From an uncultured Bacteroidales bacterium (lineage in GTDB: Bacteria > Bacteroidota > Bacteroidia > Bacteroidales > P3), in contig CAMVGR010000003.1 in the NCBI GenBank assembly GCA_947167075.1, positions 1 through 64,000 of the forward strand: a DNA stretch of 64,000 nucleotides, read 5' to 3'. A model generated the notes under the pieces. That model was given only the letters and a program-made list of their open reading frames with translations. It had not been told where the DNA came from and ran no database searches. Positions 8,680 through 54,922 of this stretch are shown here, one piece after another (within the stretch, counting starts at the first letter, position 1; each line of letters begins with the position of its first letter). Position numbers and translations under genes: made by a program.

Positions 8680-9936
8680 TTACATACTGCCCACTATGAC
8701 TTTCCGTGTTTGGTTGTTGTCAAATTTTACCAGATATACACCTTGTTGAAGAGGCTTGGATAGAGTTCCATTTCGAATGACATCCACAAGTCGACCCATC
8801 ATGTCGTAAATATTGACATTTCCATCCACAAAGCAATTAATACTGATGCATCCGTTTGTTGTGTTTATTATTGTTTCTGGCATTGTTGTCCTTTCAATAC
8901 CCACTGGGTCGGGATTATCTGGTTCTTCGTTTGAGCAGTCTTCAATGATGTTCCAAAAGTGTGCCCACAAATAAGTTGTTTCATAAACGTTCAATTTATT
9001 GCAAGGAACAACCAATATCGTTGAATCTGGATTCATTCCTACAAGTCCGTCTATTGAGTATAGATGGGAACTAGATCCGCCATGGTTATTAACATCATCC
9101 ACTACATAAACAATATTTTCTTCATTTTTTAATACTAACGTATCAAGATTGCAACCAATAAAAGCCGAATTCCAAAACCATTCCACTGTGTTACCCAAAA
9201 CTACTGTCTTTAAGTTGTAACAATTAGCAAAAGCTCTTTGGTCAATATAGGTGGCGTCTTCAAAAAGAGTAGTACTGAAAAGGCCAAAATATTTTAGATT
9301 TGTGCAATTTTCAAAACAATTGCTTTTAATTCCTCCCTCATAAATAATTACAGAGTCCAACATAGAACAACCATAGAAGGCATTGTAGCGCAAATGTACA
9401 TTATGTAAAATAATATTCCCCGAAAGATTAGTGCAACCCTTAAAGCAGCTTTCTTCAATTCGGGTAATAGAATTTGGAATGTTTACTGAGACCAAATTTG
9501 AACAATTGTAGAAACAATATTGAGGTAGTATTGAAATAGAATTGGGAATATCAATACTAGTAAGTCCGCTATGGGAGAAACATCTATTGCCTATCATCGT
9601 AACTGTACTGGGAATATTAATTGATGCTAGGTTCGAACATCCATAAAAACATTCCTCCTCAATCTCGACAATGGTATTTGGAATGATCACTTCTGATATT
9701 GTAGTATTGTTTTTAAAACAATGTGAGCCTACCTTTGTTACTGTATAGTTTCTATTATTATAGGTTACCATACTAGGTATAGTCACACTATTTTGGTGAC
9801 CTAGGTATGATTTTAAACAAGCTTCAGTTGCAGCTGGATATGAAATGTAATATTCCATACTATCTACAATAAACGTTTCTGCATAGACGTTTTCAACAGC
9901 GAGCAAGACTGCAAGAATGATACTAAACTTTTTCAT
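8680..9936 (-). CDS. BspA-like leucine-rich-repeat surface protein with type IX sorting domain
   Basis: 418 residues. The signal peptide covers residues 1-19. Residues 45-290 hold repeated units of the BspA type (LRR_5), with cores such as IPNTIVEIEEECFYGCSNL and IPSTVTMIGNRCFSHSGL. The last 70 residues look like a type IX secretion sorting domain (VNIYDMMGRLVDV, then GVYLVKFDN and KVIV). This predicts export by the Por system, of which PorD and PorQ are encoded in this window, and attachment or release at the cell surface, probably for adhesion. The gene is clearly more AT-rich than sdhCAB and nfo on either side, suggesting acquisition. Confidence 0.85.
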   Translation of the reverse strand: MKKFSIILAVLLAVENVYAETFIVDSMEYYISYPAATEACLKSYLGHQNSVTIPSMVTYNNRNYTVTKVGSHCFKNNTTISEVIIPNTIVEIEEECFYGCSNLASINIPSTVTMIGNRCFSHSGLTSIDIPNSISILPQYCFYNCSNLVSVNIPNSITRIEESCFKGCTNLSGNIILHNVHLRYNAFYGCSMLDSVIIYEGGIKSNCFENCTNLKYFGLFSTTLFEDATYIDQRAFANCYNLKTVVLGNTVEWFWNSAFIGCNLDTLVLKNEENIVYVVDDVNNHGGSSSHLYSIDGLVGMNPDSTILVVPCNKLNVYETTYLWAHFWNIIEDCSNEEPDNPDPVGIERTTMPETIINTTNGCISINCFVDGNVNIYDMMGRLVDVIRNGTLSKPLQQGVYLVKFDNNQTRKVIVGSM

Positions 9937-37351: not shown

Positions 37352-38371
37352 ATGAAGAAACCGTTGCTATCGATAACGAACCTATGGTTAGCCTTTATTC
37401 TGTGTGCCATGGGTGTTGCACTGGCATCATGCCATGGAAGGTCGATTCGCGAGGCTGTGCCTGCCGAGCCCGACTATGCCGACTCGTCGATGTGGTACGT
37501 TGAGGATCGTTTGTCCGACGTAGACCTTTTCTACATCACCTCCACCGAGACGGGCGACTACACGCTGAACGGGGTTGCAATGCACCATGCCGATGTCACC
37601 CTCGACAGCATCCGCGCCCTGCTGCTAGGCGAGATGCAGGGCATAGACCACATGTATGGCGAGGGTTTTAACTTCTTTTCGCCCTACTACCGGCAGTGCA
37701 CGCTCGAGACATACACCAGCGACTCGCTGCTGGCCGCGCGGCCAACGCTGGCCATGGGTGATGTGCGTCGCGCATTTGATTACTACCTTGAACACCTCAA
37801 CGAGGGGCGCCCCTTTGTGTTGATGGGCTTCAGCCAGGGTGCGCAGGCTGTTGTGGAGCTGTTGCGCACACTGAGCGACGAGGCCTACAGTCGCATGGTA
37901 GCCGCCTATGTCATCGGTTGGAAGGTGACCGACGATGACCTCGCCGCCGCCGGTGGCCATATCCGTGCCGCACAAGACAGTGCCGACCTCGGCACCACCG
38001 TCTGCTTCAACAGCGTCCGCTCGCCCGAATGCGCCATCTCCACCATCAGCCACGGCAACCGCCTGGCCATCAACCCCGTCAATTGGCGCACCGACTTCAC
38101 GCCGGCCACTCTGGTGTACAAAGGCGATACGCTGACGGTCTGTCTCGACACAGCCTCGCTGCTGCTTTGTGTCGATGGGTACACACGCGACGACTACATG
38201 CTCCCCCTCATCGGACGCGACGGCAACTACCACCGCCTCGACATCACCCTCTATCACCAAAGTCTCCACCGCAACATGGCTCTCCGAGCCTCGCGGTGGA
38301 CGGTCGGAACATCAGCGAACATATCAAAAGGGACGTGCTTGGAAACAAGCGCGCTACCTATGGAAAACTAA
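37352..38371 (+). CDS. DUF3089-family lipoprotein (alpha/beta hydrolase), altered C-terminus
   Basis: 339 residues from the ATG at 37352. Lipoprotein signal with lipobox LASC near residue 27. DUF3089 is an alpha/beta-hydrolase family; the nucleophile elbow is VLMGFSQGAQAV. Substrate unknown. The native protein probably ends near LYHQSLHRNMALRA. The final 25 or so residues (SRWTVGTSANISKG...) are read out of frame through a decayed YhcG copy and stop at a TAA inside it. The native end was therefore replaced by a recombination or deletion, and activity may or may not survive. Confidence 0.75.
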   Translation: MKKPLLSITNLWLAFILCAMGVALASCHGRSIREAVPAEPDYADSSMWYVEDRLSDVDLFYITSTETGDYTLNGVAMHHADVTLDSIRALLLGEMQGIDHMYGEGFNFFSPYYRQCTLETYTSDSLLAARPTLAMGDVRRAFDYYLEHLNEGRPFVLMGFSQGAQAVVELLRTLSDEAYSRMVAAYVIGWKVTDDDLAAAGGHIRAAQDSADLGTTVCFNSVRSPECAISTISHGNRLAINPVNWRTDFTPATLVYKGDTLTVCLDTASLLLCVDGYTRDDYMLPLIGRDGNYHRLDITLYHQSLHRNMALRASRWTVGTSANISKGTCLETSALPMEN

Positions 38372-38623
38372 TTGTCGCGCCACATGCGCGACAATTGACG
38401 TGGTCTCACTTCCTGCTGGTTGTGCACATTAAGGAACCGCTGACACGTGAATTCTATCTGACTATGGCAGCTGTCGAGCAGTGGAACAAGCGCACCCATG
38501 AAGCCAAGACCGTGTATGACACAATATATGACTGAGCTGTCATCCAAAGAGCTTCTGCAACGCCAGTCACACAAAAGGCATGAGGCCGCCCGCCAACATT
38601 GGGATGGCTACACGGAGGTCTGA
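38311..38623 (+). pseudogene. YhcG-family (DUF1016) nuclease, decayed copy 1
   Basis: In frame +2 relative to the DUF3089 gene one can read EHIKRDVLGNKRATYGKLIV, then RQLTWSHF, REFYLTMAAVEQW, and at the end YMTELSSKELLQRQSHK. These match the intact protein at 47925-48980 at its residues about 45-70, 110-145 and 318-351. Two internal deletions removed most of the gene including the catalytic domain. The first deletion joins the two repeated IVxxxxRQL motifs into one, as expected from recombination between them. The downstream flank still matches the flank of the intact gene. Confidence 0.85.
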
Positions 38624-38660
38624 TTCTACAATAAGTTTTTTTTGATTCAAATATAATTCG

Positions 38661-38668
38661 TATCTTTG
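38661..38668 (+). promoter_or_regulatory. -7 box before YhcG copy 2
   Basis: TATCTTTG in a context (TTTGATTCAAATATAATTCG) homologous to the promoter after the intact YhcG gene at 48994-49025. Confidence 0.6.
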
Positions 38669-38697
38669 CAAACAAAAAAACAGCTAACAACCATCTA

Positions 38698-39112
38698 ATG
38701 GCAGACAGCATAACTATACAGAATAACAACATTATGCCGTTGGTTGACGACTTGCGGCAGATAATCAATCAGACACGCAACCGCGTGGCCGTCAATGTCA
38801 ATGCAGAACTCACCCTGATGTATTGGCATATCGGCGAACGCATCAATCGAGAAGTGCTTGGGAACGAGCGCGCTGAATACGGGAAACAGATTGTTGCGCA
38901 GGTGGCGCGACAATTGCAAGAAGAATTTGGAGCAAAGGGATTCGACGAGAAAAGCATTCGTCGTATGATGCAATTTGCATCCTTGTTTCCTGAATTTCAA
39001 ATTGTCGCGACAATTACAATGGTCTCATTTTGTAGAGGTTATTCCTTTAAAAGACGACCTTCAACGGGAATTCTACCTGACGTTGGCAGCCTCCGAAAGA
39101 TGGTCTATTCGT
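38698..39112 (+). pseudogene. YhcG-family (DUF1016) nuclease, decayed copy 2
   Basis: Starts MADSITIQNNNIMPLVDDL and matches the intact copy closely to IVAQVARQLQEEFGAKGF and FPEFQIVA. At 39001-39014 the second palindromic motif is reduced to ATTGTCGCGACAAT, 11 bases shorter than the 25-base form, which shifts the frame. The old frame resumes as WSHFVEVIPLKDDL and REFYLTLAASERWSIR before homology ends at 39112. The C-terminal PDDEXK domain is missing. Confidence 0.88.
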
Positions 39113-39173
39113 CACCCTGCGCAATGAGCCCTTCCCGGACACCTACTTCACATTCCCCGTGCGGCAGCTGTAA
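39113..39173 (+). pseudogene. Fragment of another gene's 3' end
   Basis: Continuing from the truncated YhcG copy, one frame reads TLRNEPFPDTYFTFPVRQL to a stop. It looks like a protein C-terminus but the gene is not recognisable. Confidence 0.3.
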
Positions 39174-47924: not shown

Positions 47925-48980
47925 ATGAACGACAACATAACCATACACAACAACAGACTTACGCCTCTGGTTGACGACCTGCGGAAGATAATCAACCAGA
48001 CGCGCAACCGCGTTGCCGTCAATGTCAATGCCGAACTCACCCTGATGTATTGGCATATCGGTGAGCGTATCAACCGTGAAGTGCTTGGCAATGAGCGCGC
48101 AGAATACGGGAAACGGATTGTGTCGGCAGTGTCGACACAATTGCAGTTGGAATTTGGCAGTAAGGGATTTGAGCCACGTAGCATTTGGCGGATGATGCAA
48201 TTCGCACAAGAGTTCCCTGAGTTGAAAATTGTGTCGGCAGTGTCGACACAATTGACGTGGTCGCATATAACAGAGATTTTACCCTTAAAAGACGACCTCC
48301 AGCGGGAATTCTACCTGACGTTGGCAGCCTCCGAAAAATGGTCAGTTCGCCAGCTGCGCAAGGAGATTGACGGTATGCTCTACGAGCGTACTGCCATTGC
48401 GACGAAACCAGACGAACTGATCAAACAGGAGCTGTCGGAACTGCGGGACAACAATGTCCTCACCCCGGACCTTGTCTTCAAGAGCCCCTATTTCTTGGAG
48501 TTTACAGGACTGAAGGGGATGTATAGCGAAAAGAGTCTTGAGGACAGTCTTGTGGCGCATCTGGAGCAGTTTATACTGGAGTTGGGCAATGGCTTCACTT
48601 TCGTCGAGCGACAGAAGCGGATGATTATCGACGGCGAGGACTTCTATCTCGACCTGCTTTTCTACCATCGCAGGTTGCACCGTCTGATAGCCATCGATTT
48701 GAAACTCGGTAAATTCAAGGCACAGTACAAAGGACAAATGGAGTTGTATCTGCGCTGGCTCGAAGCCCACGAGATGGAGGCTGGCGAGGAGCAGCCCCTC
48801 GGGTTGTTGCTATGCACCGAAGGTGGCGACGAGCAGATAGAGTTGCTGCAACTCGACAAATCCGGCATCAAAGTGGCGCAATATATGACCGAACTCCCCT
48901 CCAAAGAACTGCTGCAACGCCAGCTACACAAAGGCCTTGAAGCCGCCCGCCAGCGCTGGGAGAATTATCAGGAGAATTGA
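47925..48980 (+). CDS. PDDEXK nuclease of the YhcG/DUF1016 family
   Basis: 351 residues. N-terminal DUF1016 helical domain (NQTRNRVAVNVNAELTLMYWHIG, then GSKGFEPRSIWRMMQFAQEFPEL) followed by a C-terminal PDDEXK-like nuclease (residues about 185-340: NGFTFVERQKRMIIDGEDFYLDLLFYHRRLHRLIAIDLKLGKF has the D...DxK arrangement). Such proteins are associated with DNA recombination and defence loci. The nine-residue motif IVSAVSTQL occurs twice, encoded by two identical 25-base imperfect palindromes at 48117 and 48228. Two decayed paralogues lie at 38311 and 38698. It immediately precedes the restriction-modification genes. Confidence 0.88.
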   Translation: MNDNITIHNNRLTPLVDDLRKIINQTRNRVAVNVNAELTLMYWHIGERINREVLGNERAEYGKRIVSAVSTQLQLEFGSKGFEPRSIWRMMQFAQEFPELKIVSAVSTQLTWSHITEILPLKDDLQREFYLTLAASEKWSVRQLRKEIDGMLYERTAIATKPDELIKQELSELRDNNVLTPDLVFKSPYFLEFTGLKGMYSEKSLEDSLVAHLEQFILELGNGFTFVERQKRMIIDGEDFYLDLLFYHRRLHRLIAIDLKLGKFKAQYKGQMELYLRWLEAHEMEAGEEQPLGLLLCTEGGDEQIELLQLDKSGIKVAQYMTELPSKELLQRQLHKGLEAARQRWENYQEN

Positions 48981-49108: not shown

Positions 49109-49250
49109 AACTTGCCATCTTAAAGTTCCACAGTTAAGACCAGTCAATGTAAAGCGGTAAACGCCTGCGAGAATATCGTGGGCTTTACTTATTGGCTGGG
49201 CAGGTCGTGGAACACCTAAGATGGCATAAGCAAAGTTCCACGATTTTCTT
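49109..49250 (+). ncRNA. Structured leader of the restriction-modification operon
   Basis: The 5' leader of the methylase gene folds on paper into a long hairpin: GCCATCTTA (49114-49122) with TAAGATGGC (49217-49225), GTTCCAC (49125-49131) with GTGGAAC (49207-49213), and CCAGTCAATGTAAAGC (49140-49155) with GCTTTAC...TTGGCTGG (49182-49199). A second GTTCCACG (49235-49242), ten bases before the ATG, is an alternative partner for CGTGGAAC (49206-49213). The two folds exclude each other. A regulatory leader or separate small RNA is inferred; the family is unknown to me. Confidence 0.55.
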
Positions 49251-49251
49251 T

Positions 49252-49896
49252 ATGCCCAGCAACGAAAACACAAAACAGATTAAGAGCCGCCAGAGGGTGG
49301 CAGACCACGGCGAAGTGTTCACTAATCCGCGCGAGGTGAATGCTATGCTCGACTTGGTGCGCGACGAGTCGTTCCGGCTCGACAGCCGCTTCCTTGAGCC
49401 TGCCTGCGGCGACGGGAATTTCCTTATCGAGATTCTGCGTCGCAAACTTTCACTACTTTCTTCTGTAAAGTCTTCGACGGAATGGGAATTCCAAATTCTT
49501 ATCGCCGTAGGGTCGTGCTATGGGATTGAGCTGTTGGAGGACAATGCGGAGGACTGCCGGGAGAGGCTGTTTGGGGAGGTGGTGGGTCGAATGGGTCGAA
49601 TGGGCGATTTGGGCGACTATGGGAAGAGCTTACGCTATATGCTGCGGAAGAATATCGTCTGCGGAGATGCGCTCACCTATCGTACTGCCGACGGCAAACC
49701 TATCACTTTCTGTGAATGGACTCCCATTGCGGGGAGCATGCAGTTCTCGCGGCGCGATTTCCAGTTTGACTTCATTGTCAACCAGACGCATCAGTATTCA
49801 CTCTTCGACGAGCAGGGCGAGGCGCAGAATTTCGACGAGCCTGTGCGGTCGTATCCTCCGCTGCATTACACTCAAATCTATAGATATGGCGATTAA
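49252..49896 (+). CDS. Small DNA-methylase-like protein of an R-M system
   Basis: 214 residues from the ATG at 49252 (MPSNENTKQIKSRQRVADHG); the ORF-track start lies inside the structured leader. SAM-binding motif I is FLEPACGDGNFL near residue 47, after the conserved GEVFTNPREVNAMLDLV helix. A catalytic NPPY motif is missing: the expected position reads FDFIVNQTHQ. It may therefore bind SAM or DNA but not methylate alone. I recall similar small proteins beside Eco57I-type methylases, where they may be a subunit. The partner methylase starts 149 bases downstream and shares the EVFT...MLDL start. Confidence 0.72.
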   Translation: MPSNENTKQIKSRQRVADHGEVFTNPREVNAMLDLVRDESFRLDSRFLEPACGDGNFLIEILRRKLSLLSSVKSSTEWEFQILIAVGSCYGIELLEDNAEDCRERLFGEVVGRMGRMGDLGDYGKSLRYMLRKNIVCGDALTYRTADGKPITFCEWTPIAGSMQFSRRDFQFDFIVNQTHQYSLFDEQGEAQNFDEPVRSYPPLHYTQIYRYGD

Positions 49897-50044: not shown

Positions 50045-51580
50045 ATGAAAGAACGATATGCACCGGACATACTCAACTGCTTGGCCAATCTGAGTAGTGA
50101 CGAGGTCTTCACCTCGCCGGAGTTGGCTAATAGGATGCTTGACCTATTGCCGCAGGAGTTGTTCCATAGTCTGAAGACTCGCTTTCTCGATCCCTGTGCG
50201 AAGAGTGGCGTCTTCCTGCGCGAGATTGCCAAGCGACTGCTGGCTGGGTTGGAAGCGGAGATTCCCGACCTACAAAAGCGCATTGACCACATTATGACCC
50301 AACAGGTCTTCGGCATCGCCTGCACCGACCTTACCGCCGAGATGAGCCGACGGACACTCTACTGCTCCAAGCTTGCCAACGGCGAGTACAGCGTCACCAC
50401 CGCCTTCCGCGACCAGCAAGGCAACCTGCTGTACGACCGCTGCCAGCACACTTGGAACGCGCAAGGCCGCTGCGAGTACTGCGGTGCCAGCAAAGGCGAG
50501 TACCTCCGCACCGACAGCCGCGAGACGTATGCCTATCCCTTTATCCATAAATCAATCAAAGAAATATTCCATAAAGATATGCAATTCGACGTAATCATAG
50601 GTAACCCACCGTACCAATTGAGTGATGGAGGACACGGAGCTAGTGCAATTCCTATTTATCAGCATTTTGTAGAAAAAGCAAAAAAATTGAATCCAAGATA
50701 CTTGAGTATGATTATCCCTGCGCGATGGTACTCTGGTGGACGTGGTCTAGATAGTTTTCGAGAGGCCATGTTAAACGACCATAGAATACGTGTGCTATAT
50801 GATTACTTTAATTCGGAAGAGTGTTTTCCTGGTGTTGACTTATCGGGTGGAATATGCTATTTTCTTTGGGACAGAGAGAACGTCGGTTTATGTAAAGTTT
50901 CGTCAGTTTTTAATGGCCAAACAACAACACTTGAACGGCCTCTCCTAGAAAAAAACGCAGCTTCATTCATTAGATTCAATCAAGCAATTACTATTGTCTC
51001 AAAAGTGAGTGAGAAACATGAAGAATCTTTTATGAATATAGTTAGTTCTAACGATCCATTTGGATATGATGTTCGTGAGGAAAACTCATATACACGTATA
51101 AAACCAAACATTAAAGAAGAAAAATTTGCTAATGCTTTAAAGATACATTATTGGGGGAAGCAAGGCAAAAGCATGGGGTATATTGAGAAAAAAACAGTAA
51201 GAAAAGGGCACGAAATGATTGAGAAAAAGAAACTCTTTATTTCACGTTCATATGGTGAAAGAGGGGAATTTCCGTATCTCGTGATAGGAAAACCTTTTAA
51301 AGGAGAGAGCGGAACTGTTTGCACTGAAACATACGTTGTTGTGGGAACATACGATGATGACAAAACAATGGATAACGTTATCTCCTATATGACTACAAAG
51401 ATGTTTCGATTTTTAGTCATGTTAAAGAAAAACACTCAAAGTGCTACAAAAAGTGTTTATCAATTTGTTCCCCTTCAGGACTTCTCCCACCCATGGACGG
51501 ACGAGATGCTGTATAAGAAATACGGCCTGACGCAGGACGAGATTGCCTTTATCGAAAGTATGATACGACCAATGGAATAG
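50045..51580 (+). CDS. Eco57I-type N6-adenine DNA methylase
   Basis: 511 residues. Motif I is RFLDPCAKSGVFLREIAKRL (residues about 47-66) and catalytic motif IV is FDVIIGNPPYQL (NPPY at 187-190). A zinc-ribbon-like CQHTWNAQGRCEYC lies at about 133-146. The C-terminal 300 residues should contain the target-recognition domain. Bases about 50535-51470, covering motif IV and that domain, are markedly AT-rich. The flanks match the GC-rich neighbours, so the specificity part looks replaced. Expected to methylate adenine in a specific site and protect host DNA from the helicase-nuclease downstream. Confidence 0.85.
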   Translation: MKERYAPDILNCLANLSSDEVFTSPELANRMLDLLPQELFHSLKTRFLDPCAKSGVFLREIAKRLLAGLEAEIPDLQKRIDHIMTQQVFGIACTDLTAEMSRRTLYCSKLANGEYSVTTAFRDQQGNLLYDRCQHTWNAQGRCEYCGASKGEYLRTDSRETYAYPFIHKSIKEIFHKDMQFDVIIGNPPYQLSDGGHGASAIPIYQHFVEKAKKLNPRYLSMIIPARWYSGGRGLDSFREAMLNDHRIRVLYDYFNSEECFPGVDLSGGICYFLWDRENVGLCKVSSVFNGQTTTLERPLLEKNAASFIRFNQAITIVSKVSEKHEESFMNIVSSNDPFGYDVREENSYTRIKPNIKEEKFANALKIHYWGKQGKSMGYIEKKTVRKGHEMIEKKKLFISRSYGERGEFPYLVIGKPFKGESGTVCTETYVVVGTYDDDKTMDNVISYMTTKMFRFLVMLKKNTQSATKSVYQFVPLQDFSHPWTDEMLYKKYGLTQDEIAFIESMIRPME

Positions 51581-52387: not shown

Positions 52388-54922
52388 ATGCAGACCAACG
52401 AACAGATACTACCCACTATGCGGCGTGCGGTGCCGCAGATTTATATGTATGATGACACGTCGTTTCCCGGATGGATCAAGATCGGGCAGACGACGCGGGC
52501 CGACGTGCGGCAGCGCATCGACGAGCAGCACCCCATTACCGAGCCGCACAAGACCTACCACCTGCTGTGGCACGACAACGCCTTCTATGCCGACGGCAGC
52601 GGCGAGAGTTTCAGTGACCACGACCTGCACGAGGTGCTGCGCCGCATGGGCAAGGAGCTGATAGGCGAGTGGTGCCGCTGCTCGCTGCGCGAAGCCAAGG
52701 CCGCCTACGTGGCGGTGCGCCATCGCGACACCCATATCGAGACGGTACGCGACCTCGACCACAAGATGCGTCCCGAGCAGGAGAAGGCGGTGAACGACAC
52801 GGCGGAATACTTTGCGCAGATGGACCGCGAGGAACCCAACCGCCCCAGCCACTACCTATGGAACGCCAAGATGCGCTTCGGCAAAACTATTTCTACTTAC
52901 CAGTTGGCCCGCAGAATGGGCGCCAAGCGGATATTGGTGCTCACCTTCAAGCCCGCCGTCGAGGACTCGTGGCGCGACGACCTGCTGCGCCACCGCGACT
53001 TCGAAGGATGGCGGTACTACAGCAGCCGTGAGGCGGATGCCACTAACGCATTGACGCACTCCCACAATAACACATCCCCGCTCGTTGTCTTCGGCTCGTT
53101 TCAGGACTACCTCGGCCGCGACAAGTACGGCAACATCAAGCCCAAGAATGAGTGGGTGCACACCATCAACTGGGACCTCATTGTGCTCGACGAATATCAC
53201 TTCGGCGCCTGGAACGACCACGCCAAGAGTCTGCTCGACCTCGGCGACAGCGAGGCCAGGAACCGCCAGACGGAAGAGGACGAGGTGATGCGCGAGAGTG
53301 GCATCGACGTGGAGAGCGGCCGCGCATGGGACGACGAGGACATACCCATCACCGGCTGTCACTTCCTCTACCTCAGTGGCACACCCTTCCGTGCCCTCGC
53401 CACGGGCGAATTCATGGAGAACCAGATATTCAACTGGACCTATCAGGACGAGCAGAAGCGCAAAGAGGCCGTCGGAGGCCCCTATCTGGAGATGCCGACA
53501 ATGGTGATGATGACCTATCAGATGCCGCAGGACCTCGGCGCGATGATAGAACAGTGGGATATGGACGGCTTCGACCTGAATGAGTTCTTCCGAGCGGAGC
53601 CAGCCAAGGGTAAGGAAGTGGCCACATTCGTACACGAGAAGGCTGTGCAGAAATGGCTCGACATCATCCGCGGCAAGACACCCATCTATGGCGACAGCAG
53701 CTCGCCCCTCAACGAGCACCCTCCGCTGCCATTCGAAGACACGCGCCTGCTCGACCTCTGCGCCCACACGATGTGGTTCCTGCCCAACGTGGCCTCGTGC
53801 GACGCAATGGAGGCCCTGCTGCGCCGTCCGGCCAACGGATTCTACCAGACTTACCAGATCATCAACTGCAGCGGTACGAAGGCCGGCATCGGCATTGACG
53901 CCCTCGGGCCTGTGCGCGAAGCTATGGGCGACAACCCGCTGACGACGCGCACCATCACCCTCACTTGCGGCAAGCTGACCACCGGCGTCACCCTGCGGCC
54001 GCTGGGCGGACTGCTGATGCTGCGCAACTGCAAGAGCCCGGAGACCTACTTCCAGACGGCTTTCCGCGTGCAGAGCCCGTGGACGACGACCGACAAGGAC
54101 GACCCGACGAAGAAAACCATCTTGAAGCCCACCTGCTATGTCTTTGACTTCGCCCCCAACCGCGCCCTGCGCGAGGTGGTGACCTACGCCAACCAGCTGG
54201 ACATAGACAGCAACCGTCGCATCACCGACAAGGTAAACGAATTCATCAATTTCCTGCCCATCCTACAGTTCGACGGAAGCTCGATGAAACGGGTGAATGC
54301 CACTGAAATACTTGACTTTGTGGACAACGGAACCAGCGGAACGCTGCTGGCGCGCCGATGGAACAGCGCCCAGCTGGTCAATGTGGACAACGCCACCCTG
54401 CAGCGTGTGCTCGACAGCCCCGAGGCGATGGCCACCATTATGAAAATCGAAGGCTTCCGCGCACTGGGCAGCGACATCATCGAGAACATCGTCAACCGTG
54501 CGGAGCGGATCAAGAAACTGAAGCGCGAGGCTGGCGACGACCCCAAGAAGAAAAAGGAACTGACTGCCGAGGAGAAGGAGTACCGCAGCAAGCGGCGCGA
54601 GGTGCAGGAAAAACTGATGAAATTCGCTACGCGCATCCCCATCTTTATGTACCTCACCGACTACCGCGAGGAGAGCCTCGAAGATGTCATCCGCAAGCTG
54701 GAGCCAAGTCTCTTTGAACGCGTCACAGGCCTCACCATCGACGACTTCGACCTGCTGCTTCGCATCGGCGTCTTCAACCGCGCCCAGATGAACGACGCCA
54801 TCCTGAAATTCCGCCGATACGAGGACGCCTCGCTGGCCTATACGGGAGTGAACCGCCATGCAGACGAAACGAGAATCGGTCTGATGGATAGTTCGATTCC
54901 TATTGAGGCATTGTTGGGATGA
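52388..54922 (+). CDS. GIY-YIG nuclease / DEAD-box helicase restriction protein
   Basis: 844 residues. Residues about 17-115 form a GIY-YIG-like domain of the T5orf172 type (IYMYDDTSFPGWIKIGQTTR, with later RQRI and a conserved Glu). A superfamily 2 motor follows: Walker A in NAKMRFGKTIST (GKT at 165-167), DEYH box at 268-271 (LIVLDEYHFGAW), YLSGTPFRA as motif III, and FQTAFRVQSPW as motif VI. The last 300 residues contain a Lys/Glu-rich helix and an unassigned C-terminal domain. It should translocate on and cut unmodified DNA. It lacks its own promoter and follows the toxin gene by 66 bases. Confidence 0.85.
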   Translation: MQTNEQILPTMRRAVPQIYMYDDTSFPGWIKIGQTTRADVRQRIDEQHPITEPHKTYHLLWHDNAFYADGSGESFSDHDLHEVLRRMGKELIGEWCRCSLREAKAAYVAVRHRDTHIETVRDLDHKMRPEQEKAVNDTAEYFAQMDREEPNRPSHYLWNAKMRFGKTISTYQLARRMGAKRILVLTFKPAVEDSWRDDLLRHRDFEGWRYYSSREADATNALTHSHNNTSPLVVFGSFQDYLGRDKYGNIKPKNEWVHTINWDLIVLDEYHFGAWNDHAKSLLDLGDSEARNRQTEEDEVMRESGIDVESGRAWDDEDIPITGCHFLYLSGTPFRALATGEFMENQIFNWTYQDEQKRKEAVGGPYLEMPTMVMMTYQMPQDLGAMIEQWDMDGFDLNEFFRAEPAKGKEVATFVHEKAVQKWLDIIRGKTPIYGDSSSPLNEHPPLPFEDTRLLDLCAHTMWFLPNVASCDAMEALLRRPANGFYQTYQIINCSGTKAGIGIDALGPVREAMGDNPLTTRTITLTCGKLTTGVTLRPLGGLLMLRNCKSPETYFQTAFRVQSPWTTTDKDDPTKKTILKPTCYVFDFAPNRALREVVTYANQLDIDSNRRITDKVNEFINFLPILQFDGSSMKRVNATEILDFVDNGTSGTLLARRWNSAQLVNVDNATLQRVLDSPEAMATIMKIEGFRALGSDIIENIVNRAERIKKLKREAGDDPKKKKELTAEEKEYRSKRREVQEKLMKFATRIPIFMYLTDYREESLEDVIRKLEPSLFERVTGLTIDDFDLLLRIGVFNRAQMNDAILKFRRYEDASLAYTGVNRHADETRIGLMDSSIPIEALLG

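Follow-up and report, generated by a model that had tools for sequence, protein, structure and literature searches.

Proteins of the YhcG/DUF1016 family (PF17761 + PF06250, COG4804) occur in Bacteroidota, Pseudomonadota, Actinomycetota, Cyanobacteriota and Deinococcota, as well as in phages and plasmids, and part of them belong to restriction or BREX loci. Their C-terminal domain is a predicted nuclease related to Holliday junction resolvases (PMC1189080). Loss of yhcG is synthetic-lethal with alleles of dnaB, dnaN and parE (PMC2672614), so YhcG matters to DNA replication somehow. In the literature on YhcG/DUF1016 we found no paper on a palindrome, nor on the N-terminal domain as a sequence-specific reader. 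Among the systems already described, the ParB-parS and Noc-NBS pairs share with YhcG (on the YhcG side by prediction) an all-helical domain with three reader helices and a short palindrome read as a two-fold dimer, and in Bacillus subtilis a parS site lies inside spo0J. The readers of ParB are on helices alpha4, alpha6 and alpha8, and few residues set its specificity (PMC7383237). In contrast to ParB and Noc, YhcG has no CTPase domain, is fused to a PD-(D/E)XK nuclease and has a longer site, which is found within its own gene family-wide and in many different specificities. Rickettsia palindromic elements (RPEs) are also palindromic DNA kept in frame within protein genes (PMC4316617), but they have about 100-150 nt, fall into few sequence classes and are spread over many genes, whereas the yhcG palindrome has about 25 bp, is variable, is bound to one family and is matched to its protein. 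Homing endonucleases are nucleases with a long, rare recognition site, as predicted for YhcG; unlike them, YhcG has its site intact within the nuclease gene (59/64 representatives), with no intron, intein or target allele shown. Restriction-modification loci autoregulated by a C protein limit themselves through a palindromic site, and yhcG likewise adjoins DNA methylases, although its site is in the coding sequence and not in the promoter, and the predicted reader is the nuclease itself.

The window investigated here is a stretch of 64,000 nucleotides from an uncultured Bacteroidales bacterium (GCA_947167075.1, contig CAMVGR010000003.1), with one intact yhcG gene and two decayed copies (Table 1). 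The product of the intact gene is a member of the family (PF17761, E 2.6e-46, 157.6 bits for a cut-off of 32.8; PF06250, E 5.3e-44, 150.3 bits for a cut-off of 32.5) and matches the PADLOC model PDLC04807 of the phage-defence candidate PDC-S02 (E 2.5e-124). From the PD-(D/E)XK catalytic residues, D243 and K260 are invariant in 43 relatives and D258 is present in at least 90% of them. The gene contains, as the initial annotation had reported, two identical 25-bp palindromes starting 111 bp apart (48117, 48228), each coding for IVSAVSTQL. Only three DUF1016 genes are found in this genome, the intact one and copies 1 and 2, which are 9 kb from it. With up to 3 mismatches to ATTGTGTCGGCAGTGTCGACACAAT, no site was found in the genome beyond the two inside intact yhcG, and hence no dispersed copies as in a mobile element of RPE or REP type. 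The ResIII/T5orf172 protein is likely part of the same restriction locus as the Eco57I-type methylase. The methylase gene 3' of yhcG is apparently split, with a weakly MmeI-type methyltransferase-like piece at 49192-49896 besides the one at 50045-51580. In many Bacteroidales loci, an orphan fragment from the C-terminal end of yhcG (residues ~312-351) is found about 80 bp before, and sometimes after, the intact gene (L009, L039, L040, L042, L043, L045, L052, L056 and L059), as if deletions had removed most of a set of tandem copies, and the window copies 1 and 2 are spaced alike.

Table 1. Features of the yhcG locus and its neighborhood, with positions in the window.
Feature	Position	Strand	Basis
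Copy 1, yhcG remnant: one palindrome, nuclease domain lost, C-terminal tail kept	38311..38626	+	Start as in the initial annotation
Copy 1 palindrome ATTGTCGCGCCACATGCGCGACAAT at the junction of a repeat-bounded deletion	38371..38395	.	Sequence
Copy 2, yhcG remnant: codons 1-~147, frameshifted	38698..39128	+	PF17761 E 2.7e-26; alignment to L037
Copy 2, motif-1 palindrome ATTGTTGCGCAGGTGGCGCGACAAT, kept	38890..38914	.	Sequence
Copy 2, collapsed motif-2 palindrome ATTGTCGCGACAAT, 11-nt loss	39001..39014	.	Alignment to L037
Intact yhcG, 351 aa: DUF1016_N + YhcG_C PD-(D/E)XK nuclease	47925..48980	+	Pfam
Motif 1, palindrome ATTGTGTCGGCAGTGTCGACACAAT, identical second copy of motif 2	48117..48141	.	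Palindromic in the window clade only
Codons 85-89 (R85, R89), predicted readers of positions 7 and 5, start of helix 84-96	48177..48191	+	Covariation
Motif 2, palindrome ATTGTGTCGGCAGTGTCGACACAAT, predicted family-wide cognate site	48228..48252	.	Place and covariation
Codons 116-117 (T116, E117), predicted readers of position 4, helix 112-118	48270..48275	+	Covariation
Codons 141-142 (V141, R142), predicted readers of positions 3 and 2, start of helix 141-149	48345..48350	+	Covariation
Eco57I-type restriction-modification methylase adjoining yhcG (neighborhood, outside the element)	50045..51580	+	PF07669 E 8e-35
ResIII/T5orf172 protein (neighborhood)	52388..54922	+	Domain match

The motif positions were first extracted from about 110 homologous loci, where the motif-2 palindrome is present even at one-third protein identity, with differing arm sequences. 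From a family set of 154 genes, 64 representatives with less than 70% identity were retained. In most of them the best palindrome of the whole gene is located at residue ~106, and 59 have a site scored as paired at this place. The arms of these sites pair on average at 11.3 of 13 positions against 6.0 expected under a synonymous-codon null (p<0.01 in 56 of 59 genes; Fisher 1e-107), which rules out amino-acid constraint alone as the cause of the palindrome. Covariation between the arms is strong at pairs 3-9 (z 8.6-11), while the peptides coded by the palindrome are diverse (EIWHTRVPNL, PIFQAVLGKL, EICYTLCSKL, EILAPMAREI). Judged from these alignments, the palindrome is shown to be conserved in place and symmetry, not in sequence. 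It was also found in genes of E. coli, Deinococcus, Rhodococcus, Curtobacterium, Leptolyngbya, Burkholderia, Legionella, Methylomonas and the Wolbachia phage WO. Motif 1 is more restricted, with a mean pairing of 11.3/13 in 83 genes of the window clade and 7.0/13 in 69 others, and its half-site is closer to motif 2 of its own gene (0.86) than to motif 2 of other genes (0.73). Most family members have one palindrome with no partner. In L144 and L149, two similar in-frame palindromes are 36-48 bp apart, which suggests in-frame site duplication. The site is absent from the canonical place in 17 of 216 genes, some of which have one elsewhere in the locus; in L151 and L153 a site matching the reader code described below is directly upstream of the frame instead.

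A blind scan with a pattern of ten free arm bases was run on 198 Bacteroidales genomes, and the 30 loci examined contained 30 sites with complementary free arms, of which 27 were in DUF1016 frames. The other three are a site adjoining a decayed copy, a site that is itself a decayed remnant of DUF1016, and a solo site. None of four sites with non-complementary arms was in a DUF1016 gene. In a second set of 379 genomes, the site was in a DUF1016 frame in 13 of 18 loci examined, with a few solo copies between or after other genes. A search of viral contigs for relatives by exact peptide patterns returned 0 and 1 loci. Extra dyads matching the site are mostly inside the gene, being a promoter copy rare, so an operator in promoters was rejected as a general rule. 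The decayed remnants L261 and L262 retain little besides the palindrome. Solo palindromes between or after unrelated genes were seen in L226, L227, L228, L239 (around 1500) and L269:1500, and L227 and L228 have GACATTTGGCAGAC...GTCTGCCAAATGTC in common in unrelated settings.

Half-site positions were numbered outward from the center, using the left-arm base. We looked for protein columns that track each base beyond overall relatedness, leaving out the residues coded by the palindrome itself; under this relatedness control, which is approximate and not tree-based, the strongest N-terminal columns were 142 for position 2, 141 for 3, 116/117 for 4, 89 for 5 and 85 for 7. Columns of the C-terminal part score as well in some cases, for positions 4, 8 and 9. 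Position 8 has no N-terminal partner and is variable among the E. coli sites too. Within 52 representatives, the pairs Arg85-G7 (19/19), Lys85-C7 (6/6), Arg116-C4 (15/15) and Arg142-C2 (41/41) have no exception, and few were found for Arg89-C5 (11/12), Lys/Arg141-C3 (12/13) and Val141-A (17/20); Asn, Gln, Tyr, His, Leu or Met at 89 go nearly always with A. In the window clade, the counts are 43/44 for R85-G7, 25/25 for K85-C7, 45/45 for E117-G4 and 26/26 for other residues at 117 with A4. Textbook contacts are those of Arg or Lys with G on one strand and of Asn or Gln with A. At the level of sequence, the covariation of half-site bases with residues 85, 89, 116/117, 141 and 142 is shown, and the pairs are chemically sensible.

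These rules, fixed beforehand, were applied to held-out genes of other clades with less than 60% identity to any training gene, where 167 of 183 calls were correct. Some held-out loci had come from the palindrome pattern, a possible bias, and the test was repeated with the same result on loci found by the family HMM only: 131 of 142 were right (92%), against 53% in shuffled data and a maximum of 69% in 5000 shuffles. By residue, the correct calls were 29/31 for 85, 23/27 for 89, 26/29 for 141 and 30/30 for 142. The site is paired at 10/13 or more in 71% of the held-out genes, a level that only 9% of the other windows within these genes attain. Second copies, that is motif 1 and the second and downstream sites of E. 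coli, follow the code less well.

The model of the N-terminal domain (pLDDT 85.8, pTM 0.80) retrieved ParB, Noc or Spo0J as nearly all of the top 15 PDB matches, some of them in complex with parS or NBS. The probability is up to 0.99, but the resemblance is weak by E-value (0.15-0.7) and by TM, which does not exceed 0.48 of the query. The C-terminal part resembles EndoMS/NucS. By sequence, no solved homologue of YhcG was found in the PDB, including ParB and Noc, and no ParB Pfam domain was found in intact YhcG. We do not file YhcG as a ParB/Noc member, as it has neither sequence homology to them nor the CTPase domain. In the model, helices 84-96, 112-118 and 141-149 seem to be spaced like alpha4, alpha6 and alpha8 of ParB, and the segment coded by the palindrome is a short helix (100-107) between the first two reader helices. 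The covariation points to few residues on three helices (85/89, 116/117, 141/142) setting the specificity, as in ParB and Noc.

We suggest that YhcG probably recognizes the palindrome built into its own gene. In the best reading, YhcG/DUF1016 would be a dimeric, sequence-specific DNA-binding nuclease with a putative site of roughly AATT-N7-CANTG-N7'-AATT within its own coding sequence, and the covariation indicates a joint evolution of site and protein in several bacterial phyla. Each subunit would take one half-site by means of its three helices, which would correspond in function to alpha4, alpha6 and alpha8 of ParB/Noc.

The decayed copies bear on a different proposal. In copy 1, a single palindrome is left (38371-38395), preceded by the flank that lies upstream of motif 1 and followed by the one downstream of motif 2, and the 37 codons between the motifs are gone, as the initial annotation had described. 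This is the pattern expected from a loss between two direct repeats, and the 111-bp loss is in frame. The N-terminus and the nuclease domain were also lost, away from the palindromes. The collapse of the second palindrome of copy 2 by 11 bases was likewise recovered: in comparison with the locus L037 (88-97% identical), there is an exact 11-nt deletion at 39002/39003, the deleted unit being one of two tandem TGTCGCGACA units. Everything 3' of codon ~147 is also missing from this copy, again away from the palindromes. In the window, ATTGTCGCG has 6 occurrences against 0.78 expected.

In E. coli K-12, the first palindrome inside yhcG is AATTCACCAGACAATGTCTGGCGAATT, and alleles of this species have 1-3 in-frame copies. 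At the first site, Lys85 goes with C7 and Arg85 with G7. A noncoding copy is found 16 bp past the yhcG stop, ATTCTGCAGAC...GTCTGCAGAAT in K-12 and ATTCTCCAGAC...GTCTGGAGAAT in LR-28, so that compensatory change is seen even between strains of a species. We discarded a rule by which position 7 of the downstream site would always carry the opposite base, since strain RIVM_C036569 breaks it. By BLAST of 5,360 E. coli genomes, only 1-4 palindrome places per genome were found. The interval from gltD to nanQ is variable; the gltF-yhcG island of K-12 lies between two related palindromes (L154:633-657 and 8971-8995), and strain 5132 has no island and one palindrome at that place (L217, between gltD and nanQ). 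The yhcG of HUSEC2011 (L214) is truncated where its third palindrome ends. That of FMU073332 (L215) has an IS1 which begins about 1 bp past one palindrome and directly adjoins another. Insertion sequences may favor yhcG palindromes, considering these alleles interrupted at palindrome ends, one of them by IS1.

The palindrome is transcribed and could fold, so an mRNA hairpin for translation control or attenuation has to be considered, but we regard it as extremely improbable. Among arm mismatches there are 16 G-T and 31 A-C (G-T fraction 0.34, with 0.47 expected), and since there is no G-U excess the palindrome is shown, on this sequence criterion, to act as DNA and not RNA. Some sites are perfect through the center and noncoding copies occur, and a hairpin would not yield base-to-reader-residue tracking with a two-fold DNA pattern. 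Scarcely more credible is a functionless quasi-palindrome kept perfect by arm-to-arm template switching in replication, a process known to homogenize inverted-repeat arms in coding DNA (PMC8604942). It leaves unexplained the fixed place across phyla and the tracking of residues 85, 89, 116, 141 and 142, which are encoded elsewhere; as a full explanation it is contradicted by the held-out code test, though it may still supply symmetric mutations. The initial annotation had proposed that the motif pair drives repeated inactivation and that the family may be phase- or copy-variable. It is true that two window deletions end in motifs, E. coli alleles are broken at palindromes and remnants L261 and L262 retain little else, so the part of the proposal about damage at palindromes stands to this extent, but both copies also have larger losses elsewhere. 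The comparison of both motifs across YhcG genes points the other way: 72 of 83 relatives (at least 65% identity) keep the two palindromes well paired, the arms change in a compensatory way that follows the protein, and no inversion, ON/OFF allele or mixed allele was seen in the comparative data. Nearly every DUF1016 gene has a palindrome at motif 2, even distant genes without one at motif 1, so the pairing of repeats is not the point. We consider deletion hot spots very improbable and, as the main function, already contradicted; the window deletions are best read as by-products of slippage at a tandem or paired-repeat palindrome, in copies that are no longer maintained.

A selfish palindromic element of RPE or REP-like type, landing in genes and moved by the nuclease, would fit the solo intergenic copies of other genomes (L226, L227, L228, L239 and L269), the multiple in-frame copies of E. 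coli alleles and the flanking copies of K-12. It seems improbable to us, as nearly all complementary sites of the blind Bacteroidales scan are in DUF1016 genes, the palindrome places in E. coli are few by BLAST and no insertion footprint was shown. The remaining alternative retains the self-recognition and gives it another use, with the nuclease cleaving the palindrome and repair copying, swapping or deleting the segment, as in homing or cassette exchange. The conserved active-site residues, the K-12 island flanked by palindromes together with the island-free, single-palindrome strain 5132, and the breaks that HUSEC2011, FMU073332 and the window copies have at palindromes are in agreement with it. 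However, an intact yhcG and several intact sites are found together on the same chromosome, the gene does not interrupt the site as in homing, the junctions could be explained by ordinary repeat deletion, and the flanking sites seem peculiar to E. coli. We regard a cutting or recombination site as rather unlikely.

Recognition by YhcG of the palindrome in its own gene is the reading we retain. The codons of its predicted readers flank the site, 85/89 on the upstream and 116/141/142 on the downstream side, so site and reader would tend to be carried together in recombination. As for its purpose, we tentatively propose, at somewhat less than even chances, a built-in operator that lets the nuclease keep its own transcription in check and that cannot be lost from the gene on transfer; this would suit a nuclease that needs a low level and moves between genomes. 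Against a classical operator, promoter copies of the site are rare, contrary to its prediction. We give about an even chance to a kind of element-protein pair not described before: a self-addressing nuclease family, with the site between its own reader codons, both drifting into many specificities within a genome and across phyla, and the nuclease acting via the site on its own gene, either self-limiting or in self-directed cutting or exchange.

This interpretation would provide a function-bearing reading for a large family of unknown function. The very many natural protein-site pairs, each contained in one gene, are a ready data set on the evolution of DNA-binding specificity, and the code between reader residues and bases is testable at once in E. 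coli K-12. It is also a warning that conserved palindromes inside coding sequences may be binding sites of the very proteins encoded there.
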